A stretch of 64,000 nucleotides of DNA from a virus. The stretch lies in the IMG/VR virus record IMGVR_UViG_3300028920_002946, positions 62,001 to 126,000 of that record. The stretch is one strand, 5' to 3'. The notes under the pieces were generated by a model. It was given only the letters and a program-made list of their open reading frames with translations. It searched no databases and had not been told where the DNA came from. A program made the position numbers and the translations under genes. Positions 5,829 to 62,084 of the stretch are shown here, piece by piece. Every line of letters begins with the position of its first letter. Within the stretch, counting starts at the first letter, position 1.

Positions 5829-5847
5829 GTCTATTAAGAGAGAATTA
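5829..5847 (-). promoter_or_regulatory. Candidate late promoter motif, site 2
   Basis: The minus strand reads TAATTCTCTCTTAAT, a full match to TAATnnTCTnnTnAT, 39 bases upstream of the gene starting at 5790 and just past the end of the endonuclease-methyltransferase gene. Confidence 0.6.
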
Positions 5848-5859
5848 TGGCATCCCCGG

Positions 5860-8115
5860 TTACTTCCGCCAAACGTAGAGGGGTTCCCCCTCCTTCTGCC
5901 TGCTGCGGGTGTTCCAATACCGGGTGGGCAGCCCCTCGAGGCGCGTGCGCGGAAGGGCGCAATGCAAATTGCGCGGGAGATTGAGGACCAGGTAGCCGCC
6001 CGGCTCCAAAGCCGATTCGGCATACTGGAAAATCAGCCCCATAAGATCCCTCCACTCCCCGCGGCCCATTTTCCTGCCGTACACCTCCAAATCGATGTAC
6101 GGGGGCGAGGTAAACACAAGATGGCACCTTTCGGGGGCGCCCTCCAATGAGAACCCGCCGTGAACGAGGTCGCACCGGGCCGCGGACACGAAATCCCTCA
6201 TGGCGCACAAACCCTTGTGGGTCTTGCCCCAAGGCTCGAACCCCACGTAGGACCTCCCGCTGGAAACGGCCCCCAGCATCCGGCCGCCCCATCCCGCGCA
6301 CGGGTCAACGACAACGCCCCCAGGGGGGCTGTAGCGCTCGACGACAGCCTTGGCCACCACGCTCGGAAACGCGGTGACGCCCCCGCTGTACTGTATCAAC
6401 GCGTTCCGGACGAATTTGGGAAGTATGCTTTTCTTGGACTTCAGGCAATACTGCAGGGTCGAATGAAGCGTGGAGTGCCCGGAGAAGGTGTCAGCCGGCG
6501 AAACCCCGCGATATGTGGCCTCGCTCATATGGGGCATGTAGTGCTTGAACAACTCATCACCCACGTTTGCATACCTCAAGACCGTATCGGACTTCCACAG
6601 GTATCTGCTCTGAAACGACTCTATCAACTTCCAGGATCGGCGAAGATACTCGTCCCCGTACCGGGGAGCCGGGAACCCCTTGGAATGATAGTAGGCAACC
6701 GCGTCGTGCAGCACCTCCGGATTCAAGTCAACCACGTACTTGTTTACAAAAGACAAATCCAGGTCGGTGTTGACGGCGGGCTTGAACAACTCCGGAAAAT
6801 AGGTTTCCCAATAGGAGCCCAAATAACCCTCATCGGACGACTTGTACCAAAAGCCGGGCAGTATATACTCACCGGGCACAGGCTCGATGCGCAACGTCCT
6901 TCTGGCGGCGTTCTTGAAGAAGAATCGATTCTCCAACGACCCTATAATGGACTTCCCGGCAGTGACTATGTCCCCTTGTGAACCGTCATCCATGAAATAG
7001 CACGCCCGGCCGAGGTCATTCAATTCGGCGGCGATCATCTCGAAATTCCTGGACCCATCCGGGTTCAGATACCTGCAGTATTCATCGAACCCCGGGCACG
7101 AGAGGCCTATCTGCTCCTCGGACACTATCACACAGTCCTCATAGGCCTGGCCCTTCCTCGGCACCGTAACCACATTGGACAGATGATCCCGCAGTATCTG
7201 CGCCTTCACGTAGAGGTAGCTCAGCTGCGCCAAGGAATGGTTGACCACAAAGCGGCCGTTGAAGTCCAAATGGCCGTCGCCCATCAGCCATCCAAGCAGC
7301 ATCTGATGCACATCCTCGTCGCGGGGGGGCGTCTCCATCGGGGGGCGCCCCACGAGAAGATCCCGTATGGCCTCCAAGTCGCCGCTCCAGGCGACCCTTC
7401 TTTCAGGCAGCGCTATGCCCGCCTGCGCGATCCTGCGATGAAGGACGGTTTCCGAAACCCCCCTCTCCCGGCTGAGGGCCGCAACGCTGCCGGCCTTTTT
7501 CAAGGACTCCTCAAACTCCTCGTCGCTTCCGGAGTTGGCGATGCCCCTGGCCCTGTGTATCCGGTGCCACCTCGGGCCATCGAGGCCGATGCTCTTGATG
7601 TGGATCAAGAGGTCATCATCGTTTACACGGACGCCGTGGATGCGCTCTATCTCACCCGCCATGTCGACAACGCGCATGTCGCGGGACAGCATATCCTCCA
7701 CATCGCTCTTCTTGACATGCCCCCTGAGCCATGTCCGGTTATCCAATGACTTGATGCCGAACCTCCGGAGCCACCACCCAGCCGTATGTCTCGTAAGGGC
7801 CAGCCCGAATTCCTCATTCAAGGCCAAGGCGACCTGTTCGTAGCCGAACTTCTTGGTCTCGCACAGATACCGGGCCCGGTCTTTCATCGCCGCCGTCCAC
7901 GACGACTCCCCGAGAACCTGGGAAGCGGCGGCGCGCTTGGGCTGGATAAGGCCCTTTTTCTTGAGGAGGGAGATCTGCCTCTTGACCCAACGAGGCGTCT
8001 GACCGAGACGCTCAGCCATCTCGGCATTCTTCATCGATGAGTAGTTTTCGACGATAAACTTGAGGTTCTCGGGGGTCTTGCGGTCGGCGGTGACGCCCCT
8101 CTTTGGCGTGCTCAT
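5860..8115 (-). CDS. HTH array - LAGLIDADG homing endonuclease - DNA methyltransferase fusion
   Basis: The 751-residue protein joins three functions. Residues 1-250 look like several winged or helix-turn-helix segments (for example MAERLGQTPRWVKRQISLL, 33-51). Residues 272-440 form a LAGLIDADG-type endonuclease with motifs LLGWLMGDG (273-281) and ACYFMDDGS (371-379). Residues 465-751 are a complete amino-methyltransferase with SAM motif VVDPCAGWGGR (602-612) and catalytic TSPPY (669-673). The ATG at 8115 was chosen because a host-type promoter ends six bases upstream; there is no Shine-Dalgarno. Distinct neighbouring operons suggest a mobile insertion. It shares architecture with the gene at 28352-30946. 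N4-cytosine or N6-adenine specificity cannot be told from the sequence. Confidence 0.85.
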   Translation of the reverse strand: MSTPKRGVTADRKTPENLKFIVENYSSMKNAEMAERLGQTPRWVKRQISLLKKKGLIQPKRAAASQVLGESSWTAAMKDRARYLCETKKFGYEQVALALNEEFGLALTRHTAGWWLRRFGIKSLDNRTWLRGHVKKSDVEDMLSRDMRVVDMAGEIERIHGVRVNDDDLLIHIKSIGLDGPRWHRIHRARGIANSGSDEEFEESLKKAGSVAALSRERGVSETVLHRRIAQAGIALPERRVAWSGDLEAIRDLLVGRPPMETPPRDEDVHQMLLGWLMGDGHLDFNGRFVVNHSLAQLSYLYVKAQILRDHLSNVVTVPRKGQAYEDCVIVSEEQIGLSCPGFDEYCRYLNPDGSRNFEMIAAELNDLGRACYFMDDGSQGDIVTAGKSIIGSLENRFFFKNAARRTLRIEPVPGEYILPGFWYKSSDEGYLGSYWETYFPELFKPAVNTDLDLSFVNKYVVDLNPEVLHDAVAYYHSKGFPAPRYGDEYLRRSWKLIESFQSRYLWKSDTVLRYANVGDELFKHYMPHMSEATYRGVSPADTFSGHSTLHSTLQYCLKSKKSILPKFVRNALIQYSGGVTAFPSVVAKAVVERYSPPGGVVVDPCAGWGGRMLGAVSSGRSYVGFEPWGKTHKGLCAMRDFVSAARCDLVHGGFSLEGAPERCHLVFTSPPYIDLEVYGRKMGRGEWRDLMGLIFQYAESALEPGGYLVLNLPRNLHCALPRTRLEGLPTRYWNTRSRQKEGEPLYVWRK

Positions 8116-8121: not shown

Positions 8122-8150
8122 AATATACAGCGACCCAAGAGCCGTGTCAA
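8122..8150 (-). promoter_or_regulatory. Host-type sigma70-like promoter of first fusion gene
   Basis: On the minus strand TTGACA (8150-8145) is followed after exactly 17 bases by TATATT (8127-8122). The ATG at 8115 begins six bases past the -10 box, so the transcript would be leaderless or nearly so. Confidence 0.8.
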
Positions 8151-9093: not shown

Positions 9094-9112
9094 TGGTATC
9101 AAAAGGGTATTA
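9094..9112 (-). promoter_or_regulatory. Candidate late promoter motif, site 3
   Basis: The minus strand reads TAATACCCTTTTGAT, matching TAATnnTCTnnTnAT except at position 7, 41 bases upstream of the gene starting at 9053. It overlaps the last codon and stop of the preceding gene. Confidence 0.5.
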
Positions 9113-15577: not shown

Positions 15578-16133
15578 TCAGAGACAGGTCCACATCACAG
15601 TCAATCTCGTCACCCCACACATCCCATCCGACAGACTTCTGCCTAGCGAACAGCTCTATTCGCGGAACATCGCCGCAAACATCAACAATCTTTCCCCGTA
15701 TGTCATCAGGCTTTTTAGAATGACCGCCTCTTTGATGCATAAACACATTAGGAATTCTACTCACGGTATCAACCGTAAACCTTCCTCGAGTACCAAACAG
15801 AATATGCTCAGTCGCACCCCTGAAATAAAATCCCATGCCATTGTTAATGACATTTCCTTGCTTATCAACCTTCACCCAGGTAAGAGTTGTTTTGTAACTG
15901 AATCCCCAAGCACTCATAACCTCAAAACCATACACTATCTTAGGATTCGTAACCCACAGAAAAAGGGCGCTGTTGTCGTCCGCTATCTCCGAAACAGGTA
16001 GCCGACAGATCTTCTCAACCGTCATCGTACCGTAATGGGCCTGCGGATTTCCCCCACGAGCGGCTTTTCTCCGCTTCTTCATCTTACCGTAATCCCAAGG
16101 GGGGTCGGCGTAAATAACGCTATACCTCTTCAC
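15573..16133 (-). CDS. MT-A70-family adenine methyltransferase
   Basis: The 186-residue protein is an MT-A70-type N6-adenine methyltransferase. It opens KRYSVIYADPPWDYG, with the catalytic DPPW at 10-13, and has the family's conserved later segments (ALFLWVTNP, GFEVMSAWGFSYKTTLTWVK, ATEHILFGTRG). The GTG start at 16133 overlaps the stop of the glycosyltransferase gene (GTGA), so translation is coupled. Its base composition is clearly more AT-rich than its neighbours, and exact AT-rich repeats flank its 3' end, suggesting recent acquisition. It probably modifies phage or host DNA; self-protection is inference. Confidence 0.88.
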   Translation of the reverse strand: MKRYSVIYADPPWDYGKMKKRRKAARGGNPQAHYGTMTVEKICRLPVSEIADDNSALFLWVTNPKIVYGFEVMSAWGFSYKTTLTWVKVDKQGNVINNGMGFYFRGATEHILFGTRGRFTVDTVSRIPNVFMHQRGGHSKKPDDIRGKIVDVCGDVPRIELFARQKSVGWDVWGDEIDCDVDLSLI

Positions 16134-23994: not shown

Positions 23995-25236
23995 TCACGC
24001 CGCGGATCCCCGCAGCGGTATCTCCTCCACGTCCTTGTCCGAGTTCTTGAAGACCACCTTGTCCACCTTGAACGTCCTGCCCCTGAAGGAGTCGTCGCCC
24101 AGCACCCTGTCGCCCCTGCCCTTCTTCACGTAGGCGATGGTGATGTGCGGGACGTACGTCGGGTAGGAGTTCTCGTTCGGGACCGCCTTCTCTATGGCGT
24201 AGTGCAGGTCCTGCAGCTCCGGGGACTCGGCGTCTATCTTCACCACGTCCTGCTTGTCCGAGTCCTTGAAGACGGTCACCAGGCCGAGCCTGACCTCGAA
24301 CGGCCCCACCTTCCCGACCTCCGACCGCAGCGTGTCCGTGACCCTCCTGGGCTTCAGCCCGTAAAGCAGGGTGATGTGCATCTCGTCCTCCCTGCCGGCC
24401 GTCCCGTCGTCGTCCTCCTTCAAGTCGGCGTCGGGGACGTTCTTTTTGCCCCAGGCGATGATCTGGTCGCCCAGATCCTTCGGGAGGTCCACCTGCGTGG
24501 TGGAGTGGTCGTACTCCCCCTCGCTGTTCGCCTTCTTGTTGCGCGGGAGCGCGGGCTTTCTCGGCCTCTTGCCGTCGCGCACGTCGCGCAGGAACTTGAA
24601 CAGCGCGTCAAGGCTGTCGAACTCCTCGTAGGAGCCGCCGGAGCCTATGTCGTCCAGGAACCTCTTCTCCCTCTCCGAACCCTTGCCCCCGCGGTAGAAC
24701 AGCACGTGGTCGACGTTCAGGACGCAGGCGAGCTCGTCGTATATGTTCTCCTCCGGCTCCCAGTCCTCGTCCGTGGGGTCGATGAAGGCGAAGTCGCCCC
24801 CGAACTCCTCGACGACGGCCCTGCGCCATTTGTCGCCGTCCGAACACCGGCCGCCCAGGAAGACGGACGGCTTGTCTGACTCGATGGCCTTGAACATCCT
24901 CCCGCGGAGATCCGACGCGAACTTGGCCACGACCGACTCGGGGGAGGCACCCTCGTGCATGGGCACGTACTCCCCGCCGACGTACCTGAACTTGGGGTTC
25001 AAGGACTCCATCCTATCCCAGGGATAGGCTTCCAAGACACCCTTGAAGTCCGGCCCCAGGTCGTTGATCGAGATGACGCGCGCCGGATCCCCGCGCATCG
25101 GGGGGAGCCTGACGCTCCTGCCGTCCCTCAAATCCTGGATGACCCGTTTGACATCGCCCCCGGGCAGACACTCGAAACAGAGATCCACGGTTTTCCCGCC
25201 GTGGGAGGCCCATGGGGCGGCGGTGCGGTCAGTCAT
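23995..25236 (-). CDS. Deoxyribosyltransferase-like plus 2H phosphoesterase fusion
   Basis: The 413-residue protein ends in a 2H phosphoesterase domain: two HxT motifs, HITLLYG (H287, T289) and PHITIAYV (H364, T366). This superfamily includes 2'-5' RNA ligase-like cyclic phosphodiesterases and phage Acb1, which destroys CBASS cyclic-nucleotide signals. Residues about 122-225 (SVFLGGRCSDGDKWRR, then FIDPTDEDW) resemble a nucleoside 2-deoxyribosyltransferase-like Rossmann domain. An N-terminal segment is unassigned. The start is the ATG after GGGGAGGGCTTG. A weak host-like promoter lies upstream. A counter-defence or nucleotide-metabolism role is inferred. Confidence 0.75.
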   Translation of the reverse strand: MTDRTAAPWASHGGKTVDLCFECLPGGDVKRVIQDLRDGRSVRLPPMRGDPARVISINDLGPDFKGVLEAYPWDRMESLNPKFRYVGGEYVPMHEGASPESVVAKFASDLRGRMFKAIESDKPSVFLGGRCSDGDKWRRAVVEEFGGDFAFIDPTDEDWEPEENIYDELACVLNVDHVLFYRGGKGSEREKRFLDDIGSGGSYEEFDSLDALFKFLRDVRDGKRPRKPALPRNKKANSEGEYDHSTTQVDLPKDLGDQIIAWGKKNVPDADLKEDDDGTAGREDEMHITLLYGLKPRRVTDTLRSEVGKVGPFEVRLGLVTVFKDSDKQDVVKIDAESPELQDLHYAIEKAVPNENSYPTYVPHITIAYVKKGRGDRVLGDDSFRGRTFKVDKVVFKNSDKDVEEIPLRGSAA

Positions 25237-25274: not shown

Positions 25275-25303
25275 AATATAATGGCTCGGAGCCCCATTCT
25301 TAA
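25275..25303 (-). promoter_or_regulatory. Possible weak sigma70-like promoter
   Basis: The minus strand has TATATT (25280-25275) 17 bases after TTAAGA (25303-25298, 4 of 6 matches to TTGACA). It lies 39 bases upstream of the 2H phosphoesterase gene. The -10 is identical to that of the four stronger promoters. Confidence 0.35.
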
Positions 25304-28311: not shown

Positions 28312-28330
28312 CGGCATGAGAAGAATATTA
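28312..28330 (-). promoter_or_regulatory. Candidate late promoter motif, site 8
   Basis: The minus strand reads TAATATTCTTCTCAT, a full consensus match, 36 bases upstream of the ATG at 28276 and just after the second fusion gene. Confidence 0.6.
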
Positions 28331-28351: not shown

Positions 28352-30946
28352 CTACCGGAACATACCCAGGAACGAGTCCCTCAAGCCCTTGTCCCGGGCG
28401 GCCGCGAAGAGACTCGCCTTGAGGTGCGCGTACGGTTTGCCCGCGTTGAAGAGGCGCTTCATCCTCGATGCAGGATTGCCTGTCGCACTTTCATAGGCGC
28501 CGAACCCCAACGCATCGCCCGCCAAATCGCAAGCATCAAAATACTCCCGTATCCTGTCGACGGGCTTCTTCACGACCCGCCCCGGCTTAAACCCGCACGA
28601 TTCAACGAACTTGTTCCATGAGCCGAATCTGCGCTCCAACACGTGTGCGGGCACGCCGTTGATGCCGTGCCCCTCATAATTGCCCCGTGCAAGCCCGATG
28701 GACGGCGCATTTTCCTTGAACCAACAAACCGCGCCGTCCAAGTCATACCTTTCACGGAAGACACGACGTCCCCTTCTTCTCCTCACCCCTCGAGGCGGGC
28801 GCTGTGTGTGCCTGTCAGGGGGCTCCCAAGTGATAGGGGGGGCCTCGTCAACCGAACAGAAGGACAGAATATCCTCATGGGCCCCGCCATTGAAGTTTCT
28901 GACAGGAACGGCAAACTTCTCAAACAGATGAAACCCCACAGACTTGCAGAGTCGTATGGTGTCCTCTATCAAAGGCGCGCAGGAGCGCTCCGAAAGACAC
29001 ACGGAGAACACCCCGCCGGGCGCAAGCGACCCTATGCAGTTGCGGACGGTGGGATCCCAATAACCCTCTATCCACCGCCGATAGTCGGGGAACTTCGCCA
29101 CACTCTGGGTGCTCTCGTCGCTGTACCTTTCGTAATCGAAGTACGGGGGGCTCGAGAAGGCGACGCTAAAGGCCCCGGGTTTGGGGCCGAAACCCTCCGA
29201 TCCGGATTTGACCACATCAAACCTCCCCCCGACCACGGGACGAAGAAACGACCCGAAGCGCTCCAAGTTGGAGGCCGTCTCCGAACAGGGTTCGACGCAC
29301 ACATAGTCCATGCCCAGAGACATGGCCCCGAGCATGCGGGACCCGTACCCGCCGCTGTAGTCCAGCACCCGCCCGTTGGCGCCATACCTGTAGAACACAA
29401 ACCTCGCCACGGAGGGCTTGAAATTGCTCACGCATAGCCGCATGGCCTTGAATCCCCTGCGCATCGAAGCCTCGCCCACGCGGTCCGCATGCTCAAGGCG
29501 GTTTCTGACATAGCCCCGCATGAAGGACTCGTCCCGCCACAAATCAACAGGCGAGGCGTGGCCCTTGCGGCTCGCGGAGTACATGTTCGGAAAAAAGCCC
29601 TCGCACAGTATCATGCCCGCCGAACTATGAGCCAAAACGCCCCCCTCGTCCCTGATAATCGATGAACGCTTGAAAGACGAAGCCAGATACTCGGCCCTCT
29701 TCGCGCTGAGGGACATATAGGGAAACGGTTTGCCCCAATATCTTCTGAACAGGGTGTCCTCCATCGCCGACTTCACGGGATCCGGGGACAGCCGATAGAA
29801 TTTCGGGCGCGGGTCGCCGACGAGCGCGGACACCCGGGCGACCTCCTCCGCGGACAGGAAATCCTCGGGTATCTTGTAGTACATGTCGGGGGTGGCGACC
29901 CCAAGCACGATGCGGAAAAAATCGCGGTAGTGGCTTTTCGACACTGTCACGTTATGGCCCGAAAGGGAAAACCCCCATCCGTATCTGTCCTCCAACCAAC
30001 CGACGAAGCGCTCAATCTGCGAGCGGTCGCCGCAGAAGTTGGCTATGGACATCTGCCTCCTCTCGTCGTCGTAACTGCCGTCGTCCAGGAACCAATAGCC
30101 CAAAATGCGGTCATCCCAATTCTCCTCGATGAACTTAAGAGGGACTGCCTTGCCCGGCACACCATCGGTGTAGAAGGCTTCTCGAAACTCCGCGAAAGCG
30201 GGATGCGTGACCGTATTAATTCTGAACTCATTTCTATCGTGATCCTTCATAATTCTATTTGAGTAGGGCTCAAGGGCAACCATCTTGCTTCTTAAGTAGT
30301 CTTTTTGTTTTGCCGAGTGAGTTTCATAATATCTCGGTGACCTGTCGATGCCGCCGTCGCCGAGGAGGCCCCCTATGATGAGGAAACGCTGCTCTTTGGT
30401 AAGAGCGGGATATTGACCCTGTCGCCAATCCTCCTTTGGCCCTATGCCCCTCTGACGTAGAACAGGAAGCCAAACGGTCTTCGACAACCCCACCTTCTCC
30501 GAAAAAGCGTCGTTCGTCATGGAGTGGTACATGGATCGCAATTCATCGGTCGACATGGAAACCAGACGTTCGGACGCGTTCCGCGTCTTTGAAAATTTGT
30601 CCGTAGCGAGCAGACCTATCCTTTTTCGTCGGTATGCCACACCCGGGCCTGTCAAGCCGAAACGACGCCCAATTTCCTCGTCGGAAAGTCCCTGCTCGCA
30701 AAATCCCTTGAGGACATCATCCGTCAATAGCTTTCTCAGCCCCTTTTTCTTGCCCGTGTACGCAACACGGACATCAGAGCGACCAACGCTCTTGGGGTTT
30801 GTGGGAATGCCGTATTTCCTCAAGAGCTTAAAAACGGCGTCCTCAGTCACTCCGACCAACGAACCTATCTCCCGGCACCGAAGACCGTGTGTGGAGTACA
30901 GCTGCCTAAGACTCTCTTCATCGAGTTTGTCAAACGAATAGTTCAT
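28352..30946 (-). CDS. HTH - LAGLIDADG homing endonuclease - DNA methyltransferase fusion (second copy)
   Basis: The 864-residue protein has the same order of parts as the gene at 5860-8115. Residues 1-170 hold HTH-like segments (REIGSLVGVTEDAVFKLLRK, 25-44). Residues 185-345 are the LAGLIDADG endonuclease (IIGGLLGDGGID 190-201; ILGYWFLDDGSYDD 281-294). Residues 395-700 are the methyltransferase, with SAM motif VLDYSGGYGSRMLG (527-540) and SSPPY (598-602). A C-terminal extension (about 735-790) ends FGSWNKFVESCGF, like homing-endonuclease-associated repeats. The ATG at 30946 lies seven bases past a TATATT box. The proteins are diverged, so this is not a recent duplication. Confidence 0.85.
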   Translation of the reverse strand: MNYSFDKLDEESLRQLYSTHGLRCREIGSLVGVTEDAVFKLLRKYGIPTNPKSVGRSDVRVAYTGKKKGLRKLLTDDVLKGFCEQGLSDEEIGRRFGLTGPGVAYRRKRIGLLATDKFSKTRNASERLVSMSTDELRSMYHSMTNDAFSEKVGLSKTVWLPVLRQRGIGPKEDWRQGQYPALTKEQRFLIIGGLLGDGGIDRSPRYYETHSAKQKDYLRSKMVALEPYSNRIMKDHDRNEFRINTVTHPAFAEFREAFYTDGVPGKAVPLKFIEENWDDRILGYWFLDDGSYDDERRQMSIANFCGDRSQIERFVGWLEDRYGWGFSLSGHNVTVSKSHYRDFFRIVLGVATPDMYYKIPEDFLSAEEVARVSALVGDPRPKFYRLSPDPVKSAMEDTLFRRYWGKPFPYMSLSAKRAEYLASSFKRSSIIRDEGGVLAHSSAGMILCEGFFPNMYSASRKGHASPVDLWRDESFMRGYVRNRLEHADRVGEASMRRGFKAMRLCVSNFKPSVARFVFYRYGANGRVLDYSGGYGSRMLGAMSLGMDYVCVEPCSETASNLERFGSFLRPVVGGRFDVVKSGSEGFGPKPGAFSVAFSSPPYFDYERYSDESTQSVAKFPDYRRWIEGYWDPTVRNCIGSLAPGGVFSVCLSERSCAPLIEDTIRLCKSVGFHLFEKFAVPVRNFNGGAHEDILSFCSVDEAPPITWEPPDRHTQRPPRGVRRRRGRRVFRERYDLDGAVCWFKENAPSIGLARGNYEGHGINGVPAHVLERRFGSWNKFVESCGFKPGRVVKKPVDRIREYFDACDLAGDALGFGAYESATGNPASRMKRLFNAGKPYAHLKASLFAAARDKGLRDSFLGMFR

Positions 30947-30953: not shown

Positions 30954-30982
30954 AATATAGCATTTGGAGATGCTACTGTCAA
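30954..30982 (-). promoter_or_regulatory. Host-type sigma70-like promoter of second fusion gene
   Basis: On the minus strand TTGACA (30982-30977), 17 bases, TATATT (30959-30954), then seven bases to the ATG at 30946. The spacing and leaderless layout mirror the first fusion gene's promoter. Confidence 0.8.
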
Positions 30983-31041: not shown

Positions 31042-31072
31042 AAAAAAGAGTCGGGGACGAATCCCCGACTCT
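31042..31072 (-). terminator. Strong intrinsic terminator after the capsid gene
   Basis: On the minus strand an 11-bp perfect stem (AGAGTCGGGGA paired with TCCCCGACTCT) is closed by a TTCG tetraloop and followed by six T residues counting the stem end. It lies 22 bases after the stop of the capsid gene and ends the head operon before the second fusion gene. Confidence 0.92.
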
Positions 31073-31094: not shown

Positions 31095-31976
31095 CTAGCG
31101 AGCAATCTTCACGCGGCACAGCGCCAGCGGGTTGTAGCAACCAATCCCAAGGTGTTCGAAAATGCTGAACCCTATCCTTCTTGCCCGGGGATCGTCTGCG
31201 CTCAGAACTGTGAGTTCTGTACGGACGGGAATACGCCCGAAGAACTCCGGCTCCGCGCACACGTAGGCGTACCCACGCGCGACCTTACGAGAGACGATGA
31301 CCTGCGCGCCCCAGAGGGTGGCGAGCATGCCGCTCTTCAGCAGCGTGGCCTGGCTCTCGAGGTCGAGGACATCGCGGCCCCACTTCCTCAGGTCGGCGAA
31401 GTCCAGCGCGTTCATGAACACGCGGGCGACCCTGAGGTCGTGCGTCTCGATGCGCGCGTAGGCGTCGATGAGGTTGGAGGGGGTGAGCGGCGCCACGGCG
31501 TTGACCTGGGCGTTGGTGTAGCTGCTGTCCAGGTTGTCGAAACCGTTCGCAGCGACGGCGTCCATGACGTCGAAGATGCGTCCGTCCTCAGCGGCCTGGA
31601 TCTGCGCCTTGCCGAGGTCCTGGGCGCGCTCGATGATGTCGAAGCGGCGCTCCTTGACCTGGGTCAGCGGGATCTCAGGGTTCGAGGCGAGCTCGAAGAG
31701 CGGGAAGGTCACCCTGCGGCCCTTGACCACGGCCAGGATGTTCTCGCCCTCTTCGCCGACCACGAATGCGGTGACGTTGGGGTCCTTGTCGTAGATGGGC
31801 AGTGCGCCATCCGGGAGCTGCTCGACCAGGAATGCCTTCCTGGCGACCGACGTGTAGTCTCTCCGCAGACGGAGAGGCTGGATCATCGACGCAGCGATCT
31901 TCGCACGGCCGGAGGCCGTCTTCAGATACTCGTTGATGATTTGCTGCTTGACCTCGTTGCTGATAGTGTCAGGCAT
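31095..31976 (-). CDS. Major capsid protein, HK97-fold-like
   Basis: The 293-residue protein has the layout of an HK97-type capsid subunit. An N-terminal helical arm is followed by a region with LVEQLPDGALPIYDKD and VTFPLFELAS. A long helix comes next (about 105-140), then an A-domain-like part (YARIETHDLRVARVFMN). The C-terminal strands include an APVIVSRKV-like turn (WGAQVIVSRK). Strong AGGAGG upstream of the ATG, a structured leader and a powerful terminator downstream all fit very high expression. It follows the decoration-like and scaffold-like genes. Confidence 0.8.
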   Translation of the reverse strand: MPDTISNEVKQQIINEYLKTASGRAKIAASMIQPLRLRRDYTSVARKAFLVEQLPDGALPIYDKDPNVTAFVVGEEGENILAVVKGRRVTFPLFELASNPEIPLTQVKERRFDIIERAQDLGKAQIQAAEDGRIFDVMDAVAANGFDNLDSSYTNAQVNAVAPLTPSNLIDAYARIETHDLRVARVFMNALDFADLRKWGRDVLDLESQATLLKSGMLATLWGAQVIVSRKVARGYAYVCAEPEFFGRIPVRTELTVLSADDPRARRIGFSIFEHLGIGCYNPLALCRVKIAR

Positions 31977-33953: not shown

Positions 33954-33972
33954 CTACATGAATAGATTATTA
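33954..33972 (-). promoter_or_regulatory. Candidate late promoter motif, site 9
   Basis: The minus strand reads TAATAATCTATTCAT, a full consensus match, 75 bases upstream of the scaffold-like gene start. This site could drive scaffold, decoration and capsid expression independently of the protease. Confidence 0.65.
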
Positions 33973-33990: not shown

Positions 33991-36885
33991 CTATCCGCCG
34001 GTCGACGGATTCCGCACCTTGTTCAGGATCCCCGCCCACTTCAGGAGCTTCCTCGACTCCGATTTGGATGGCCTCCTGCCCGTTTCCACTATGATTTCGG
34101 TGAAGAACCGCCGCGCGTCGCCGTCGGACGCCAGGCGCACCTTGCTGAGCGCCCTGACCGCGTCGGGCCCGACAGGCTCCCTTGAGAGCTTTCCGTCCAC
34201 GTACCACAGGATTCCGAGCACGTCGTCCCTCGAGTACCCGTAGCGGGCCATGCGCCCCCAGTCCCGCAGGTTGGACATGATGAGCATGGCGTTCGCGAGC
34301 CTCTCGCCTATCTCGCCCGACGCCTCCCTGAGCATCCTGGGGAACGAGGCCTCCTTGACGAGGTCGTCGTTCGAGGCGAGGTCGGACTCCGCCGGCCTCT
34401 GGTCGGGCCTCGTGGCCGACTGGGCGCCGCCCTCCATGAGGTCGTGCCTTATCTCGTTGAGGACCGTGCGCTTGAGCATGTCCTTCACTTCCTTGGCGGT
34501 CGCGTCCTGCGGGGGCTCCTCGACCTGCGGCTGCGGGGGCTGGTCGGGCGCCCCTCCCGGGGCCGCTCCGCCCAGTCCGGCGGCGTCCCCGCCGGGGGCC
34601 GCGCCCTCCGCGGGCGGCGGCGCGTCCTCGCCGAGCGGCTTCTCCGCGTCGGCGGGGGCCTCCGGGAAGCGCGTGTCGTCCGTCGGCGCGGGGGGCGCGT
34701 CGGCGGGCGGCGCCTCGGGCGCCGGGGCCGGGGCCGGATCCTGCGCCTCGATCTCGGTGACTATCTCGTTGGCCGCCTGCTCGGCGGCGGCCTTCACGTA
34801 CATGCCGTCCGTCTTCACGAACTCCGGCACGGCGAATGCCTTGGTGAACTTCTCGGACAGGTCGAAGTCCGGCTCCACGAGGTTGCGGAGCACGGCCCCG
34901 CCGAAGGCGGGCTTGCGGACCCAGCTCGCGTCGATGAACCTGCAGCTCTCGGGGTCCTCCACGCGCCCGCACAGCTCCGCGACGATGCGCCTGACACCGT
35001 TGGGGTCGTAGAAGAAGTTCCGCTTGAAGAAGCGCACGTGCTTGCAGGCCTTCGACTCGTCCTCGGCGATCTGCCCGCACTGGCTGCACTGCGAGTATTT
35101 TATCAGGCAGCCCATGCTGGTGGCGTTGTACTCGCCTGAGGTGATCTTGTTGATCAGATCCTCGTGCTTGCGGTTCGTGGCGATGAGGATGTCGACGTAG
35201 AGCGTAGTGAGGTCCTTGCCGTCCTTGTCCTTCACGAAGGGCACCTCACGCAAAGCGACGTCTATGACCTTGCCCTTAGCGAGCTCGGGTATCTGCACGT
35301 GTTCACAGTTATGCACCGCCACACCCTCGGCGATGTACGAATTATCGCCCTCGACCTCGATGTTATGCACGGTGAAGGAACCTTCGACAGGCCCCACTCC
35401 TTCGATTTTGGACAGAAGCCACGACCCGTCATCATTGGAGAATTTGTACGTGAACCTGTTGTCCCTCTTGCCGAACATCAACGAGGAAGAATCACCCGCG
35501 GCGGCATCCAGGGCCTTGGAATCGCGACAGGAGTACCTAATCATGTACCCGGGACGGGATTTCTTTCCTGTCTCCGGATCCGTATACACATCATACCCAT
35601 CGACAACATTGCACTCAGCGTATCGACCCAAGACACCCGTTTCCTTGTAGGTCGGCAACAGCCCCAAACGCCATGAAATCCACATGAATTGCTGCACAAG
35701 CTGGCGCGACTTCAACTCCATGATGTACCCGCGAGACTTGAGCACCCCGCACCCATCACCGGAAATGCAGGATCTCAAAATCCTCGTTTGCAAACCCTTC
35801 GGAAGCCACATGGCCTCCTCAGGTAGCTTTTTGGCCCACGCATACTCGCCGCACCATTTCTTGAAGAAATCAGCCACGACCTTATTGCTAACACACAACG
35901 TGTAACTTCCGCTGTGCGTCTCACGCACGCGAGGCGAACACCCGGTCCTGAAGCCCTCCCCGAACTCTTTTTCCAACAGATCCTTCAGCATCACGGCGAC
36001 GTCGTACTCGTCATTTCCAAGGGCAAAGCAAACCCCGGACTCCTCGTCGGAGGAGTTGTTCGTCCGCATGTAGAAACCCTCGGCGAGGAACCAACCTATT
36101 AGAGTCGCGCGATTCTCGTTGACCTCCTCGTTCGGCACCTCAAGATCTGAGACAGGATGCGTCAGAAAATCGCGATCAGGGTCAATGCAGCCCGCGTCCT
36201 TCCAAGATCCGGATATCCCACATGGAAAGCTTTCCCCAGCGGCTTTGTGCACGCCCACCGAAAAACCAAGCCACTTATCGAGGCGGCAGAAGTCCTTGTC
36301 CTTGTCAAAGCGGTTCGGCCGGCCTGTCTTGGGACACGTCTTCCGTGCGCTGTACACCCAAAATGGGTGGTTAGCAGTAACGAAAAGGCTCCTCGACATA
36401 ATCGCGCGCGACTTGATTTCCACCAAATCATTTGCCTCATGCACAAATGTTCTCAACACGGCTGCTGGCTTTCCAAGCCTGTTGATCACCTTGTCACCGA
36501 CTTGTATCTCATCTATTGGCTTGTACGTTCCATCGGACATTAGCACGCGCGTACCAGCCGTGAAACAGTAGTTGTTCGCGCCCAAGAAGGACTTGTAGCA
36601 GGCGCGGAGCATGTCGCGCTCCCACGAGTCCCCGTTGTTGTTCACGAAGACGGAGTACTCGGGCTTGATCAGGTAGTTGGACTTGGGATCCTCGGGGTCG
36701 GCGCGGTCGGTGTCGACGGAGGCGATGATGGTCACGTGGCTGAGCAGCCACTGCGACGGGTCATAGGTGGCGATGACATTCTTGGCCACCTTGATCCTTC
36801 CCGCCGGGACCACCTTGTCGACCCACTTGCCGGGGTCGACCATCGCCGTCGTGACGGCAGCGTGTCCGTATTTCAACATCGCCAT
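33991..36885 (-). CDS. Prohead protease precursor interrupted by an intein
   Basis: The 964-residue precursor splices to about 544 residues. The N-extein (1-106) and first C-extein part resemble phage prohead core proteases. EHVQIPELAKGKVIDV supplies the likely catalytic His just after the intein, and NATSMGC (about 592-598) the likely Ser. A CSQCG...CKH cluster follows, and a Pro/Ala-rich linker (about 720-780) leads to a helical C-terminal domain, perhaps scaffold-like. It lies between the neck-like gene and the scaffold-like gene. Activity would require protein splicing. Confidence 0.82.
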   Translation of the reverse strand: MAMLKYGHAAVTTAMVDPGKWVDKVVPAGRIKVAKNVIATYDPSQWLLSHVTIIASVDTDRADPEDPKSNYLIKPEYSVFVNNNGDSWERDMLRACYKSFLGANNYCFTAGTRVLMSDGTYKPIDEIQVGDKVINRLGKPAAVLRTFVHEANDLVEIKSRAIMSRSLFVTANHPFWVYSARKTCPKTGRPNRFDKDKDFCRLDKWLGFSVGVHKAAGESFPCGISGSWKDAGCIDPDRDFLTHPVSDLEVPNEEVNENRATLIGWFLAEGFYMRTNNSSDEESGVCFALGNDEYDVAVMLKDLLEKEFGEGFRTGCSPRVRETHSGSYTLCVSNKVVADFFKKWCGEYAWAKKLPEEAMWLPKGLQTRILRSCISGDGCGVLKSRGYIMELKSRQLVQQFMWISWRLGLLPTYKETGVLGRYAECNVVDGYDVYTDPETGKKSRPGYMIRYSCRDSKALDAAAGDSSSLMFGKRDNRFTYKFSNDDGSWLLSKIEGVGPVEGSFTVHNIEVEGDNSYIAEGVAVHNCEHVQIPELAKGKVIDVALREVPFVKDKDGKDLTTLYVDILIATNRKHEDLINKITSGEYNATSMGCLIKYSQCSQCGQIAEDESKACKHVRFFKRNFFYDPNGVRRIVAELCGRVEDPESCRFIDASWVRKPAFGGAVLRNLVEPDFDLSEKFTKAFAVPEFVKTDGMYVKAAAEQAANEIVTEIEAQDPAPAPAPEAPPADAPPAPTDDTRFPEAPADAEKPLGEDAPPPAEGAAPGGDAAGLGGAAPGGAPDQPPQPQVEEPPQDATAKEVKDMLKRTVLNEIRHDLMEGGAQSATRPDQRPAESDLASNDDLVKEASFPRMLREASGEIGERLANAMLIMSNLRDWGRMARYGYSRDDVLGILWYVDGKLSREPVGPDAVRALSKVRLASDGDARRFFTEIIVETGRRPSKSESRKLLKWAGILNKVRNPSTGG
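35308..36567 (-). mobile_element. LAGLIDADG intein in the prohead protease
   Basis: Residues 107-526 of the precursor (420 aa) form a canonical intein. It starts CFTAGTRVLMSDG, with a block-B TANHPF near intein residue 64. It has two endonuclease motifs (ATLIGWFLAEG near 154, LRSCISGDG near 264) and ends VAVHN followed by Cys. All splicing residues (Cys1, block-B His, penultimate His, terminal Asn, +1 Cys) are present, so splicing and homing both look intact. Base composition is more AT-rich than the exteins. Confidence 0.93.
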
Positions 36886-42329: not shown

Positions 42330-42348
42330 TCACATGAAGAGATCATTC
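42330..42348 (-). promoter_or_regulatory. Candidate late promoter motif, site 12
   Basis: The minus strand reads GAATGATCTCTTCAT, a near-full match (first base differs), 44 bases upstream of the regulator gene. It ends six bases from the plus-strand -35 box at 42354, so the two promoters are back to back. Confidence 0.6.
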
Positions 42349-42353: not shown

Positions 42354-42382
42354 TTGACGGCGGCGTTGTAAAAACGTATATT
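42354..42382 (+). promoter_or_regulatory. Host-type sigma70-like promoter of plus-strand gene
   Basis: TTGACG (42354-42359), 17 bases, TATATT (42377-42382). It drives the plus-strand gene whose ATG is at 42399, with a GGAGGG ribosome-binding site between. Confidence 0.75.
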
Positions 42383-42398
42383 ATGATTGGAGGGCGCC

Positions 42399-43103
42399 AT
42401 GATAGCTTTGGTGAAAGACGGATGGAACGCCCTGTGTCCAGCGCCGAACCGTTGGTATGTGGCAATGGAGTGCTACAAGCCACATTTCTGGTCGAAACCC
42501 GGCTGCTACGTGGTCTTGGCCACGGACTACGAGTTCGACATGCATCACTTCTCGGACGTGGACGGTGGCTGGGTCGTGCGCCTGGGGAGAGTGGTGGCGC
42601 CCTACGAGCGCCACTATCAGCATGGCGAACATGATCGGTTGAAAGCCCTGCTTGAGGCGATGCCGCCAGAGGACGTGGTCAAGGTGGCCCGGGACCACGA
42701 ATACGACGCGAGTCACATCAGGCAGTTCGCCGTGGAGGCCGCGGAGAGGCGCGGTTTCGGGGATCTCATGCGTGAGGCCGGCATATGGCCGCGCCGGGTC
42801 GAATGGGTCGTAGGCAGAGAGATATCGAGCATATTCCGGCGGAAGATCCCGTACATCGCGGACAAGAGGCTCGAATACTACGCGCGCCGCAGGATCGCGA
42901 TGAATCACGGGTCGATGTGGCTACCGCCTATCAACCAAGCGCTAAACGCGTCCAGGGGCCTCACGACAAGGGAAACGAGGCGGCGCGACAGCTGGACAGC
43001 GGACAACGTCGAACTCTACGAGCGCAAAGCCGTCAGGCGCGCCTTCCGATTGGGCCATTTCACCGGTTACAGGGCCTCGATCTCGGACGACTTGGGGTTC
43101 TGA
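42399..43103 (+). CDS. Plus-strand cargo gene, unknown function
   Basis: The 234-residue protein is soluble, with Trp- and His-rich segments (NRWYVAMECYKPHFW; HHFSDVDGGWVVRLG) and a basic C-terminal half (RKAVRRAFRLGHFTG). No domain was recognised. The ATG at 42399 was chosen over a TTG at 42387 because GGAGGG lies four bases upstream. Opposite orientation to the phage operons and its own host-type promoter mark it as a cargo (moron) gene. An anti-phage or exclusion role is possible but unproven. Confidence 0.75.
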   Translation: MIALVKDGWNALCPAPNRWYVAMECYKPHFWSKPGCYVVLATDYEFDMHHFSDVDGGWVVRLGRVVAPYERHYQHGEHDRLKALLEAMPPEDVVKVARDHEYDASHIRQFAVEAAERRGFGDLMREAGIWPRRVEWVVGREISSIFRRKIPYIADKRLEYYARRRIAMNHGSMWLPPINQALNASRGLTTRETRRRDSWTADNVELYERKAVRRAFRLGHFTGYRASISDDLGF

Positions 43104-43169
43104 AACGCGTTTGACAAGAGGATTCCACATACGCGCTCCAAGCCATAACCAACTTTTTTCAAAAAACTG

Positions 43170-43198
43170 TTGACAGAGGCTTTTGAAAAAAGTATATT
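43170..43198 (+). promoter_or_regulatory. Host-type sigma70-like promoter of LamG gene
   Basis: TTGACA (43170-43175), 17 bases, TATATT (43193-43198), about 50 bases before the ATG, with AAGGAGG at 43234-43240. This is the strongest host-type promoter in the window. Confidence 0.8.
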
Positions 43199-43247: not shown

Positions 43248-44111
43248 ATGAGAAAGACGGCACTCGCAGTCATCGCGCTGGTTGGCATGGCCCTGGCGCA
43301 GCCGAACCCGATGATCCCGACGGACGGGCTCCTTGCCCGGTACGACTTCACGAACGGGAGCCTCGAGGACGGTTCCGGCAACGGACGGACGCTCGAGAAC
43401 TTCGCGGGTACATCAAATCTGCCGGAACTCACGGCCGACCGCGACCTTTCCCCGAACAGCGCATATCATTGGAAGGGATCGATTTCGGATCCTTGGATGA
43501 CAGACGATGCGGGGATGCCCGCGGGCTCGGCGGATCGGTCAATCTGCGCGTGGGTATCACTCGTTTCCTGGGATTCGTGCCAATACATTGTTTCGTGGGG
43601 ACTCACCCGGTGGGGTGAGCCAAAGGATGGGTCGTTCAGCCTTGCGTTCCTCTACGACTCCATCGCAGTCCTGCAAGGCGACACGCGCCTCGGGGGCGTG
43701 AGGGTTGCCCATTCGGAGATACCCGCGGACGGATCATATGACGAGCCTTGGGCGCACGTCGCCGTGACCATCGAGGGCACCACGGCCAAGTTCTTCATCG
43801 GCGGGTCGTTGAAGGGGACGGTGACCATACCCGAACTGGCGACGGCCACGGACAACACCAAGCTGATGGTCGGGGGTTCCTTGGGGCACAACATCGACGC
43901 CAAAATGGACGAGATTCTAATCTACGACCGCGCCCTTACCGACAACGAGGTGCTGAACGTCTACGAGCCGCAGGTAGGCATATCGAAGTCTGCCTCAAGG
44001 ATCGTCCATATGACTCCGGCGCGATCAGTCGCCGGATACTACGACTTGAGCGGGCGTCGCATGGCACGTCGGCCGGACGGCGAATTCGCCGTGCGCTACT
44101 TGCGCAGATAG
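43248..44111 (+). CDS. Secreted LamG-domain protein, possible sorting tail
   Basis: The 287-residue protein starts with a signal peptide (MRKTALAVIALVGMALAQ). A concanavalin A/LamG-type domain follows (about 25-245: YDFTNGSLEDGSGNGRTL, HVAVTIEGTTAKFFIGG, KMDEILIYDRALTDNEV). The C-terminus (MTPARSVAGYYDLSGRRMA, then basic RYLRR) resembles the type 9 secretion or Fibrobacter-like tails of FCB-group secreted proteins. It has its own host promoter, so the lysogen or infected host probably secretes it. It could bind host-surface glycans; a role in exclusion or adhesion is inference. Confidence 0.8.
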   Translation: MRKTALAVIALVGMALAQPNPMIPTDGLLARYDFTNGSLEDGSGNGRTLENFAGTSNLPELTADRDLSPNSAYHWKGSISDPWMTDDAGMPAGSADRSICAWVSLVSWDSCQYIVSWGLTRWGEPKDGSFSLAFLYDSIAVLQGDTRLGGVRVAHSEIPADGSYDEPWAHVAVTIEGTTAKFFIGGSLKGTVTIPELATATDNTKLMVGGSLGHNIDAKMDEILIYDRALTDNEVLNVYEPQVGISKSASRIVHMTPARSVAGYYDLSGRRMARRPDGEFAVRYLRR

Positions 44112-44134
44112 TCGCCTTTGCCGCGCGGTGAACG

Positions 44135-44160
44135 GGGGTGGGCATCACTGCCCTCCCCCT
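44135..44160. terminator. Hairpin between convergent genes
   Basis: An 11-bp stem with one mismatch (GGGGGTGGGCA/TGCCCTCCCCC) and a 4-base loop lies between the plus-strand LamG gene and the minus-strand fibre-like gene, so it could terminate both. The U-tract is weak. Confidence 0.55.
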
Positions 44161-55128: not shown

Positions 55129-56037
55129 TTAAGCGCCGCGGAGCCAGCGGTCGAAGCGGAGGAGGATGCGCCTCAGATCCTTGGTGAGCATCCCGTAGGC
55201 CGTGTGGGCGATGTGAAGCGGCACGTAGTCGTAGTACGCCTGCGCTATGGCCCCGGCGAGGCACCCGAGGCTGTCGGCGTCGCCGCCGAGCGACACCGCC
55301 CGGCGCACGCAGTCCTCGTACGACGTGGAGCAGAGGAAGCATATGACGGCGTGGGGGACGGTGACCTGGCACGAGACGTCGAAACCGTTGGCGGGCCTTA
55401 TGTCGTCGTCGGTCTTGGACAGATCGTAGCCGTAGGACAGCTCCATGTAGCTTTTCAGGATGTCCTTGCTCGCCCCCATGCGGGCGAGGCTCACGGCCTG
55501 CACCGCCGCGTCGGCCCCCTTAAGGCCCTCGTCGTGGTTGTGGGTGACCTCCGCGGAAAGCCGGGACTGCCTGTGGAGCGAGTCGTGGTCCTTGTAGATC
55601 CAGCCAAGGGCGATGGCCCTGACCGCGCTCCCGTTGCCCCAGCTTTTGTACGGGCCGGCGACGCTCGACCCCACCCAGGACGAAAAGAGCCTCCCGTACC
55701 CCGCCCCCGGGTGGCGCTTGCAGACTTTCCTCAGATGCGAGGCGTAGTCCCCGTTCGACATGGCGGCCTCGGCGACCGCGAGGAGCATCACGGTGTCATC
55801 CGTGAACCGCGAGCCCTCCTTGAACAGGTCGAGTCCGTAATCCTTCTCCGGATGCCTCTCGCGCGTGGATCCTATGATATCCCCGGCGATGGCCCCTATG
55901 AGAGGGGTTTTGGACAGATCGACGCGCGTTTTGGGGGCGCGCCTATTCCCTGTATCTGCGGTAGATGATCGAGAGGACGCCGGTCGGGTTCCAATGCTGG
56001 CTTCCAGTATGCTTGCCGAGTTTGAGTTTTTGCGCAA
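55129..56037 (-). CDS. ADP-ribosylglycohydrolase (ARH/DraG-like)
   Basis: The protein has the family's conserved motifs: LIGAIAGDIIGS (about 46-57), RFTDDTVM (TDDT, 79-82), HNHDEGLKGADA, and the closing GGDADSLG. These place two metals for hydrolysis of ADP-ribose from proteins or nucleic acids. The only standard start in frame is a TTG at 56037, and the first 37 residues overlap the 65-residue gene in another frame, so the real N-terminus is uncertain. Entry by +1 frameshifting or a rare start is possible. It could reverse host ADP-ribosylation defences. Confidence 0.8.
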   Translation of the reverse strand: MRKNSNSASILEASIGTRPASSRSSTADTGNRRAPKTRVDLSKTPLIGAIAGDIIGSTRERHPEKDYGLDLFKEGSRFTDDTVMLLAVAEAAMSNGDYASHLRKVCKRHPGAGYGRLFSSWVGSSVAGPYKSWGNGSAVRAIALGWIYKDHDSLHRQSRLSAEVTHNHDEGLKGADAAVQAVSLARMGASKDILKSYMELSYGYDLSKTDDDIRPANGFDVSCQVTVPHAVICFLCSTSYEDCVRRAVSLGGDADSLGCLAGAIAQAYYDYVPLHIAHTAYGMLTKDLRRILLRFDRWLRGA

Positions 56038-56325: not shown

Positions 56326-56952
56326 TCATGAAACCTCGTCGTATTTCACCCGCTTGCCGCGGTTGAAGTGCGGGAGGATGACCTCGTGCATCATGTAGAG
56401 GTTCCCCTTGACGTAGACGGCGAGGTCGTGGACGGTCGCAAGCTCCTTGTGGTCCTCCTTGAGGGAGGCCAGCTTGCCGATGGCCCGCTCGAAGCGGTGG
56501 CGGACCTTCACCTGCGTCATCCGCTTGTCGCCGCGGAGCCTGTGCCTCTTGTTGAGTATCGCGGCGGTGCGCGACTGGCACGTGGTCTCTATCATCGTCT
56601 GGATGACGTCTATGTCGAAGGGGTCGAAATGGCCGGCGAGGAGTTCGCCGAGGTCGCCCTCGACCTTGGGCATGTCCCTGAGGAACTCCAGCCTCCGGAT
56701 GGCCCTGCAGAGCCTGTGGCTGACGGCCCCCTGGGTGACGCCGAAGAACGCGGCGATCTCCTTCTGCTTCTTCCTGGCGCGGCAGTACATCTCGATGAGG
56801 TCCTGCTCGCGCTGCGGCAGCCGGCTGATGAACTCCTGGTAGTCCTCCAGCCTGAACTGGCTGCTCTGCAGCTTGTAGAAGGAGTACTTCTCGGAGGAGA
56901 AGCGGTTCTGTATCTCGAGCGGGTCCATGCTGCGATAGCGCCTTGATGACAT
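56326..56952 (-). CDS. Sigma-region-4-like HTH protein
   Basis: The 208-residue protein has a sigma-70 region-4-like segment (about 43-95): FISRLPQREQDLIEMYC, then the HTH KEIAAFFGVTQGAVSHRL, then RAIRRLEFL. The flanking regions are not typical sigma region 2, so it may be a divergent sigma factor or a promoter-binding co-factor. It is the last gene of the replication cluster. It is the best candidate in the window to recognise the TAATnnTCTnnTnAT motif. Confidence 0.75.
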   Translation of the reverse strand: MSSRRYRSMDPLEIQNRFSSEKYSFYKLQSSQFRLEDYQEFISRLPQREQDLIEMYCRARKKQKEIAAFFGVTQGAVSHRLCRAIRRLEFLRDMPKVEGDLGELLAGHFDPFDIDVIQTMIETTCQSRTAAILNKRHRLRGDKRMTQVKVRHRFERAIGKLASLKEDHKELATVHDLAVYVKGNLYMMHEVILPHFNRGKRVKYDEVS

Positions 56953-56965
56953 CAACCACCACCTT

Positions 56966-57892
56966 TCAGAACAGCGAGTACGTCTCCACCTTCTCGGCCG
57001 TGACGGATTCCCCGTATCTCACATTGAGGGACGAGGCGAACAGATCCCCCACGGCATCCGGATCCACTGACTTGACGCTGTAGGATTTCAGCACCTCGGC
57101 CATAACCCCCTTGTCCACGGACCCCGGCGTCTCGACGATGCCGCCGACGTCCTCCCTCAGCTTCATAAGCGCCATATTTCGGTAGGCCGCGTCCCTGAAT
57201 CCCTTGAAAGCCGCCCTCTCCCTCTCGGTAAGCGACGCAGCCCCCAACGCGGAGTAGAGCGCGTCAATCCCCTTGTGTTCGGAGATGAGCGACGCCACGA
57301 CCTTGCGCCTCACGCGGGGTATCCCGCCGAGGCCGTCGCTCTGGTCGCCGTCGAAGCTCCTGAACTGCGCCAGGAGAGCCGGCGGGACGCCGAACCGTTC
57401 GACCACGGCCGACTCGTCGTAGAACCTTTCGGGCTTCTGGCCGCTTTTGGGCCTGAACACGATTATCTTGCCGTCCTCGACCAACTGAAGGAAGTCTTTG
57501 TCGTTTGAATATACCACTATATGGCCGTCCTGGCAACGCCAACGCGAAACCAAGGTCGCGACGACATCGTCGGCCTCCTCGTCCGGGCATCTGTATTGGT
57601 CGACGCCGCAAGCGGTTAGGAACCTTTCCAGATCCCTGACCTCGTCCATCACAGGGTTCGGGAGGCGGGTGCGGTCGGCCTTGTAGTCAGGCTTGATCTC
57701 CAGCTTCCGCCTCGAGCGGCTGTCCCACACGACGGCAAACTTGTAGCCCCGGTATCGTTTCTTCAAAGAAACGATGGTGCGCACGAAGCCGAAGAACATG
57801 CCGGACGGCCTGCCATCCGCCGTCTTCAGTTCGAAGTTGGCGTTGTGCGACCTGTGGGCCAGGTTCATGCCGTCTATGACGAATCTGTTCAT
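56966..57892 (-). CDS. FEN-type 5'-3' exonuclease
   Basis: The 308-residue protein is a FEN/PolI-type 5' nuclease. Visible metal-site motifs include IDGMNLAHR near 6-14, IKPDYKADR near 73-81, PDEEADDVVATL near 108-119, YSNDKDFLQLV near 134-144, and FDGDQSDGLGGIP near 190-202 (helix-hairpin-helix region). It removes RNA primers or flap DNA at replication forks. The start at 57892 is supported by AGGGGCGGT. It sits in the replication cluster next to the NusG-like gene. Confidence 0.9.
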   Translation of the reverse strand: MNRFVIDGMNLAHRSHNANFELKTADGRPSGMFFGFVRTIVSLKKRYRGYKFAVVWDSRSRRKLEIKPDYKADRTRLPNPVMDEVRDLERFLTACGVDQYRCPDEEADDVVATLVSRWRCQDGHIVVYSNDKDFLQLVEDGKIIVFRPKSGQKPERFYDESAVVERFGVPPALLAQFRSFDGDQSDGLGGIPRVRRKVVASLISEHKGIDALYSALGAASLTERERAAFKGFRDAAYRNMALMKLREDVGGIVETPGSVDKGVMAEVLKSYSVKSVDPDAVGDLFASSLNVRYGESVTAEKVETYSLF

Positions 57893-61694: not shown

Positions 61695-61723
61695 AATATA
61701 ACGGCATGGCAGGCGGAAATTAA
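61695..61723 (-). promoter_or_regulatory. Possible promoter of the replication operon
   Basis: The minus strand has TATATT (61700-61695) 17 bases after TTAATT (61723-61718; 3 of 6 matches to TTGACA). The -10 is five bases before the ATG at 61689. The weak -35 makes this tentative. Confidence 0.4.
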
Positions 61724-61754: not shown

Positions 61755-62084
61755 CTAAAGCGAGCGTATGATGTCGAGGACGTCGATATCCCTCTGAAGC
61801 AGATGGTGCAGCTCCTCCATGCTCCTCGTGCTCACGATATCCTTCGCCTCGGCGCTCAGCTTGGTGGCCGTGATGTTGCCGCACGGGCGCACCCTGTGCA
61901 GCCTCATCAGTTCCGTGACCGCGGAAACGGGCACCGTGAACAGCCTGTTCTGGTGCATGACGAGCACCCTGCCGCACCCGGCGCATATGATCATGACCGG
62001 GCTGGCCTCCTCGCACACCATCTTCGTCTGCGTCTGGCACGTGGGGCACTTCACCAGGTATTCGGACATTTCGACTTCATTCAT
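61755..62084 (-). CDS. Small zinc-ribbon protein
   Basis: The 109-residue protein carries two CxxC pairs (CPTCQT near 13, CAGCGR near 35) forming a zinc ribbon, then a helical region. The ATG has GGGGGA upstream. A role in regulation or nucleic-acid binding is possible; the family is unknown. Confidence 0.65.
   Translation of the reverse strand: MNEVEMSEYLVKCPTCQTQTKMVCEEASPVMIICAGCGRVLVMHQNRLFTVPVSAVTELMRLHRVRPCGNITATKLSAEAKDIVSTRSMEELHHLLQRDIDVLDIIRSL

Follow-up and report, generated by a model that had tools for sequence, protein, structure and literature searches.

The DNA analysed here, called the window, is the 64,000-nt stretch from base 62,001 to base 126,000 of the 182,677-base IMG/VR virus record IMGVR_UViG_3300028920_002946. 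The gene content of the record is that of a large tailed phage (portal, terminase, major head protein, baseplate, UvsX-like recombinase, sliding clamp and 22 tRNAs), and its GC content is 61.8%. Judged by the head protein, the nearest named phages are an uncultured phage (72%), Tunturiibacter phage Tunturi_5 (48%) and Bacillus phage G (39%). A search for the host with the head protein and p2 (Table 1) found no relative in the genome contigs covered, and queries with terminase and fusion 1 gave no confirmed relative among the viral contigs searched. A home-made caller was used for gene calling; it gave 169 genes in the record and missed small ORFs in the tRNA region.

The minus-strand genes fusion 1 and fusion 2 and the opposite-strand genes p1 and p2 are referred to below as cargo. 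Both fusion proteins carry N-terminal HTH-like repeats, and a LAGLIDADG fold with catalytic-type acidic motifs was found in each. Taken alone, fusion 1 stays under the Pfam cut-off for LAGLIDADG_2 (22.9 versus 25), and fusion 2 matches PF03161 at 52 bits. A profile built from fusion 2 and ten related proteins, one of them fusion 1, matched I-SceI with an E-value of about 4e-21 and an N4-cytosine methyltransferase at 4e-8. The motifs of both parts are invariant or nearly so in this profile, with the GD and DG pairs invariant in all 11. The structure predicted for fusion 2 has a mean pLDDT of 78.5, and I-SceI and SAM methyltransferases were its best PDB matches among those listed by Foldseek. 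Profiles and structural model together identify fusions 1 and 2 as predicted LAGLIDADG endonucleases of the I-SceI type, each fused to a DNA methyltransferase. p1 is an orphan, for which no relative was found, nor any family in searches that used the sequence from 42402, without the ATG. The GC content of the cargo is slightly low (57–62%). In codon usage, with genes as called, the four cargo genes are among the nine lowest of 113.

Table 1. Features of the window, numbered from its first base
Feature	Position	Strand	Remarks
Fusion 1 (751 aa)	5860..8115	-	HTH, LAGLIDADG-type and methyltransferase parts
Fusion 2 (864 aa)	28352..30946	-	predicted I-SceI-like LAGLIDADG endonuclease and DNA methyltransferase; directly behind major head gene
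p1 (234 aa)	42399..43103	+	opposite strand; GGAGGG before ATG
p2 (287 aa)	43248..44111	+	opposite strand; LamG domain PF13385; signal-peptide-like start by eye
Class I promoter of fusion 1	8122..8150	-	TTGACA-N17-TATATT; ATG 6 nt past -10 box
Class I promoter of fusion 2	30954..30982	-	TTGACA-N17-TATATT; ATG 7 nt past -10 box
Class I promoter of p1	42354..42382	+	TTGACG-N17-TATATT; exact match
Class I promoter of p2	43170..43198	+	TTGACA-N17-TATATT; exact match
Class II site before g063	25275..25303	-	TTAAGA-N17-TATATT; not a cargo promoter
Class II site before g098	61695..61723	-	TTAATT-N17-TATATT; not a cargo promoter
Class III motif before g042	5832..5847	-	13/16; downstream neighbour of fusion 1
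Class III motif before g044	9097..9112	-	12/16; upstream neighbour of fusion 1
Class III-like motif before g068	28315..28330	-	11/16; downstream neighbour of fusion 2
Class III motif before head operon g072-g071-g070	33957..33972	-	14/16; position conserved in relatives
Class III-like motif before g080	42333..42348	-	11/16; neighbour of p1
Major head protein gene	31095..31976	-	phrog_2522; insertion neighbour of fusion 2
Terminator-like hairpin and T-run	31042..31071	-	between major head gene and fusion 2 promoter
Hairpin behind p2, possible terminator	44134..44159	+	no clear T-run; 3/200 shuffles fold equally well
Protein with sigma70 region 4 domain	56326..56955	-	PF08281 35.4 bits, PF04545 33.4 bits

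Sigma70-type sites before the cargo genes

The initial annotation had placed host-type promoters before the two fusions and both plus-strand genes. Each of the four proved to be an exact match, in position and in strand, to TTGACR-N17-TATATT (class I; Table 1). The window holds this pattern four times and no more (expected count 0.00); in 100 dinucleotide shuffles of its sequence four matches were never reached, and no match appeared. Hexamers and spacer are of the sigma70 type (TTGACA, TATAAT-like, 16–18 nt), the −10 box TATATT being one letter off TATAAT, and it is this resemblance to the consensus that suggests a host-type promoter. When TTGAC and TATATT were sought at other distances over the whole record, with the −10 box outside called genes, seven pairs were found at spacer 17 and none at each of the 16 other spacers from 10 to 26.

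Promoters were ranked for the 93 called genes preceded by a gap of at least 25, a stretch of 200 bases before each gene being scored. For fusion 2 and p1 the start had first been corrected by hand, the one used for p1 being 1 base off. The sigma70-type score is hand-made and E. coli-like. Ranks 1–4 were taken by the four cargo genes (19.5, 19.5, 19.5 and 18.5), and the fifth gene scored 16.3. Among 3,000 coding windows the 99th percentile was 14.5 and the maximum 18.0. In this genome-wide scoring most phage operons had no equally good match.

Other promoter-like motifs in the record

The exact pattern occurs seven times in the whole record, and its reversed form not once. The three additional sites (record positions 168230, 173022 and 176201, all +) are each followed by a tRNA, 182, 189 and 579 nt away. 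The called genes downstream of these sites are g149, g155 and g160; because the caller misses small ORFs in the tRNA region, the sites fall within 200 nt upstream of none of the 93 genes. None of the seven precedes a gene identified as structural, packaging or replication, the families of g149, g155 and g160 being outside the search. The initial view that such promoters mark exactly the cargo genes is thus correct within the window; in the whole phage the motif marks cargo and the tRNA region.

The tRNA-region sites bring in another explanation, in which all of these are the phage's ordinary early promoters, belonging to an early regulon of the tRNA region and small genes, and are not specific to cargo. 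Two one-mismatch sites accompany the three exact ones in that region, and one of the five stands 12 nt before tRNA-Met, as this explanation would have it. However, in the late-type half of the record exact sites occur at the four cargo genes only. We consider a general early regulon rather unlikely to be the whole account, for this reason and for those given with the insertion sites below. It overlaps with the cargo-specific reading, in that both predict host sigma70 and early use. The region itself (record 168440–182397, outside the window) holds 22 tRNA genes, one of which, with anticodon tta, was called as a stop-reading tRNA. TTGTAA-N17-TATATT is also found at record 178168–178196 (+), ahead of an ORF with a lipoprotein-like start.

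Three weaker look-alikes listed initially, at 25275 (two mismatches), 56279 (two) and 61695 (three), were confirmed. A closer near-match that had not been listed, TTGCCA-N17-TATATT at 57508–57536 (−), has one mismatch, lies inside a 5′-3′ exonuclease ORF and is probably due to chance. Two of the look-alikes belong to a second set of sites, TTAA-N19-TATATT (class II), found before other phage genes; five occur at spacer 17 and one at the 16 other spacers. Behind one TTAA-N19-TATATT site lies a gene (23995–25236, −) for a 2′-5′ RNA ligase superfamily protein, whose match to the anti-CBASS protein Acb1 is barely above the cut-off.

Word counts in upstream gaps first indicated a further motif, near TAATAATCTATTAATA (class III). 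At 12 or more of 16 letters it stands before 20 of the 93 genes (15 in the minus-strand half) and before none of the four cargo genes; the best of 3,000 coding windows reached 11. Once it had emerged, the idea that the late-type genes are just without promoter signals was abandoned. Homologues of the head operon gene g072 have it at 13 letters or more before 15 of 15 starts. In the relative G005 the g057 homologue is inverted and its copy of the motif is turned the same way, and the motif is present before g080 as well, beside a LamG gene. Over all loci, our own included, 2 of 78 nuclease ORFs versus 38 of 277 resident starts have it at 13 letters or more, the reverse of the sigma70-type pattern. 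The motif is not family-wide. With up to two mismatches allowed, no match was found in 5 of the 16 records, and phage G gave 22 matches where the reversed control gave 27. The other 10 of the 16, our own included, were above the reversed control, which was not empty in AT-rich records.

The T4-type late promoter has the consensus TATAAATA. The class III motif was considered as a promoter of this type and rejected, being near TAATAATCTATTAATA and not TATAAATA, although it may still act in a similar way. Its presumed late use is deduced from the genes that it serves. The phage protein with a sigma70 region 4 domain (Table 1) may be what reads it; sigma region 2 (PF04542) was not found in the record.

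Occupied and empty insertion sites and their recurrence in relatives

The site of fusion 1 is occupied in two relatives, where an orthologue lies behind g044 (45% in G008 and 42% in G003) with TTGACT- or TTGGAT-N17-TATATT. It is empty in G005, in which g042 follows g044 directly and no such promoter was matched; the fusion 1 promoter lies inside the segment missing from G005. The site of fusion 2 is empty in L019, whose head protein is 90% identical. There the head gene is followed by a hairpin-like stretch (by eye) and then by homologues of g068 and g067, while in our DNA the order is hairpin and T-run, promoter, fusion. The hairpin stretch before the promoter folds at −24.7 kcal/mol over 51 nt, and none of 200 shuffles was that low. 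That the fusion 1 promoter is part of the insertion, and that unrelated nucleases occupying these sites in relatives have similar promoters, both argue against ordinary early promoters.

No empty site was seen for p1 or p2, and G005 has no match to p1. The p2 slot of G005 holds a LamG gene in the same orientation, with TTGTAA-N17-TATATT. In the late-type regions of two relatives, small opposite-strand ORFs (L031, 11442–10945; L160, from 1892) are preceded by TGGTAA- and TTGATT-N17-TATATT and have a common run near AAAAAAGTATATT, resembling the p2 promoter. Secreted-type proteins occur among the products of lysogenic conversion genes, and p2, with its LamG domain, is a protein of this type. The cargo promoters might therefore be meant for expression in the uninfected, lysogenic or carrier state, which we judge improbable: no match to an integrase of PF00589 or PF00239 was found in the record, which may be incomplete. 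For lack of such an integrase, the comparison with expression in a lysogen that had been proposed may not apply.

Since the exact motif is present in the whole records of just 4 of 22 relatives, a looser score was used on them. Behind the head gene 80 of 96 loci were kept, and p-values against matched shuffles were obtained for 65 distinct loci, our own included, after 11 near-duplicates had been removed by hand. In the first grouping, 14 of 31 LAGLIDADG loci and 4 of 34 others had p ≤ 0.02 behind the head gene, and none of 64 upstream of it. The four exceptions among the others are also nucleases, three of the zinc-finger/DUF7487 type and one TnpB; the two zinc-finger/DUF7487 nucleases tested match a PHROG labelled 'homing endonuclease'. 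With loci labelled by profile, p ≤ 0.02 was found behind the head gene for 18 of 43 nuclease loci versus 0 of 15 non-nuclease loci (Fisher p = 0.0024; 17/42 and p = 0.0025 without our own locus), a comparison that omits five short and two opposite-strand loci and uses a post hoc regrouping, made after inspection of 10 of the 34 loci, five of them picked for low p. At the second site, behind g044, the same profiles and threshold gave 4 of 11 nuclease loci versus 0 of 50, and 1 of 60 upstream. Five opposite-strand loci were omitted here, and L160 was added by hand with its promoter and fusion already known; without it and our own locus the counts were 2/9 versus 0/50 (p = 0.02).

Over all loci, a score of at least 16.3 was reached by 33 of 78 nuclease ORFs (two of them our own) versus 11 of 277 resident starts, and a score of at least 18 by 14 of 78 versus none of 277. 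The loci have a common ancestry, and consequently the counts are not independent. No strong match was found at 25 of the 43 nuclease loci behind the head gene. The full-length fusion 2 orthologue of L037 had none (p = 0.72), nor had the nuclease that follows the head gene in LR745208. A further possibility is that the matches simply come with AT-rich inserts placed in a GC-rich genome. The cargo does have a slightly low GC content, but the shuffles gave no match, the spacing is fixed at 17, relatives were scored against matched shuffles, and resident starts below 45% GC reached 16.3 in just 9 of 167 cases; we find this explanation scarcely credible.

The claim that the signal separates cargo from late genes holds in part. 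In its favour are the four top ranks, the other motif before resident genes, and the recurrence at two insertion sites and over all loci. Against it are the exact matches in the tRNA region, the five class II sites before other phage genes, and the five non-cargo members of the nine most codon-atypical genes, none of which has an exact site (one-mismatch sites lie 326 nt before g151 and 348 nt before g157).

Predicted expression of the cargo and comparison with known systems

The first in-frame ATG comes 5–7 nt past the −10 box in 13 of the 33 nuclease promoters, the next value being 10. The 13 comprise those of both our fusions and 11 others and include both profiled nuclease families. With the usual transcription start point, an ATG 5–7 nt past the −10 box is at about +1. 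The mRNAs of these 13 nuclease genes are thus predicted from spacing to be leaderless. The trait is not fixed, as in other nuclease promoters the ATG is 18–36 nt downstream, several with a Shine-Dalgarno sequence; both fusion 1 orthologues have it at 20 nt.

Given the observed sites, their ranking, the occupied and empty alleles and the recurrence in relatives, we believe it likely that the four sites are sigma70-type promoters of inserted, self-contained units of promoter and gene, placed at operon junctions in the late-type half. They would be read by host RNA polymerase, probably early, and independently of the late switch. Two of the units would be free-standing endonuclease-methyltransferase genes and two moron-type genes on the opposite strand. 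Resident genes would largely use the class III motif, possibly aided by the sigma-region-4 phage protein. Because the cargo has standard sigma70-type promoters and its neighbours mostly another signal, expression of the cargo probably starts independently of the phage programme. Host polymerase could then transcribe it upon DNA entry, before the late programme and whatever its orientation, and a leaderless start would make the fusion genes independent of resident signals. A nuclease made early could cut empty alleles in co-infecting phages, and the fused methyltransferase may shield DNA. More tentatively, and with rather less confidence, we suggest that the homing nucleases of this clade, of at least two families (LAGLIDADG-methyltransferase and zinc-finger/DUF7487, perhaps also TnpB), are portable cassettes with a consensus sigma70 promoter, often leaderless, set between operons with an undescribed late promoter near TAATAATCTATTAATA. 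Such cassettes would need only the host polymerase and ribosome, the opposite of what holds in T4.

As the available part of one source describes them, morons in the original sense are whole transcription units that a phage genome has acquired as additions (PMC6316719). Fusions 1 and 2 are added units in this sense, with promoters of their own at the sequence level; like morons, the cargo is added between phage genes, is patchy in presence and has atypical codon usage. Unlike morons, two of the units are homing-type nucleases, predicted to be leaderless, and a search for terminators behind the fusions found none. The cargo shares its intergenic position with the free-standing homing endonuclease genes of T4, of which segD too adjoins the major capsid gene. 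In the portion of that source available, however, endonuclease-specific promoters of T4 are middle (five) or late (two) and none is early (PMC2988022). The cargo promoters match the sigma70 consensus, and the T4 enzymes are GIY-YIG or HNH as opposed to LAGLIDADG with methyltransferase (PMC2988022).

Early promoters on single phage endonuclease genes have already been published. The direct precedent is Kayvirus vB_SauM-515A1, in which inserted genes with early promoters lie in or beside late genes; in the accessible text ksaI has the early promoter p72 and I-MsaI has p87 (PMC7698491). An intron-borne early gene is described for AR9 in the part of that report available (PMC5312081). These precedents, as far as the sources extend, are single cases, two of them intron-borne, and differ from the present cargo, which is free-standing, involves several nuclease families and two recurrent sites, and has leaderless spacing (PMC7698491). 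Each part of the fusions resembles proteins of solved structure, I-SceI and N4-cytosine methyltransferases, which are here joined in one phage protein. In the open-access literature, screened by title and the start of the abstract, no matching report was found of leaderless homing endonucleases or of a LAGLIDADG-methyltransferase fusion.

If the preferred reading is correct, promoter type could help to flag mobile cargo within the late regions of unannotated phage genomes. A host-readable promoter with a leaderless start would be one way in which homing nucleases stay mobile across phages with different transcription programmes. The T4 pattern of endonuclease promoters that are never early, as given in the available portion of the source, would then not be general (PMC2988022).

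Some other genes of the record are of interest in themselves. The head maturation protease gene (33991–36885, −) has an intein-like insert of about 420 aa (residues ~107–527), and the parts flanking it align contiguously in L031. NrdD (record 159241–162504) contains a long insert with an endonuclease-like match. A 1,375-aa protein with several glycosyltransferase matches (16130–20257, −) has a homologue that is inverted in G005. An ADP-ribosylglycohydrolase-like gene lies at 55129–55788 (−). Outside the window, adjoining genes at record 165269–167692, one matching nicotinamide phosphoribosyl transferase weakly and another matching NAD synthetase, may form an NAD salvage pair.
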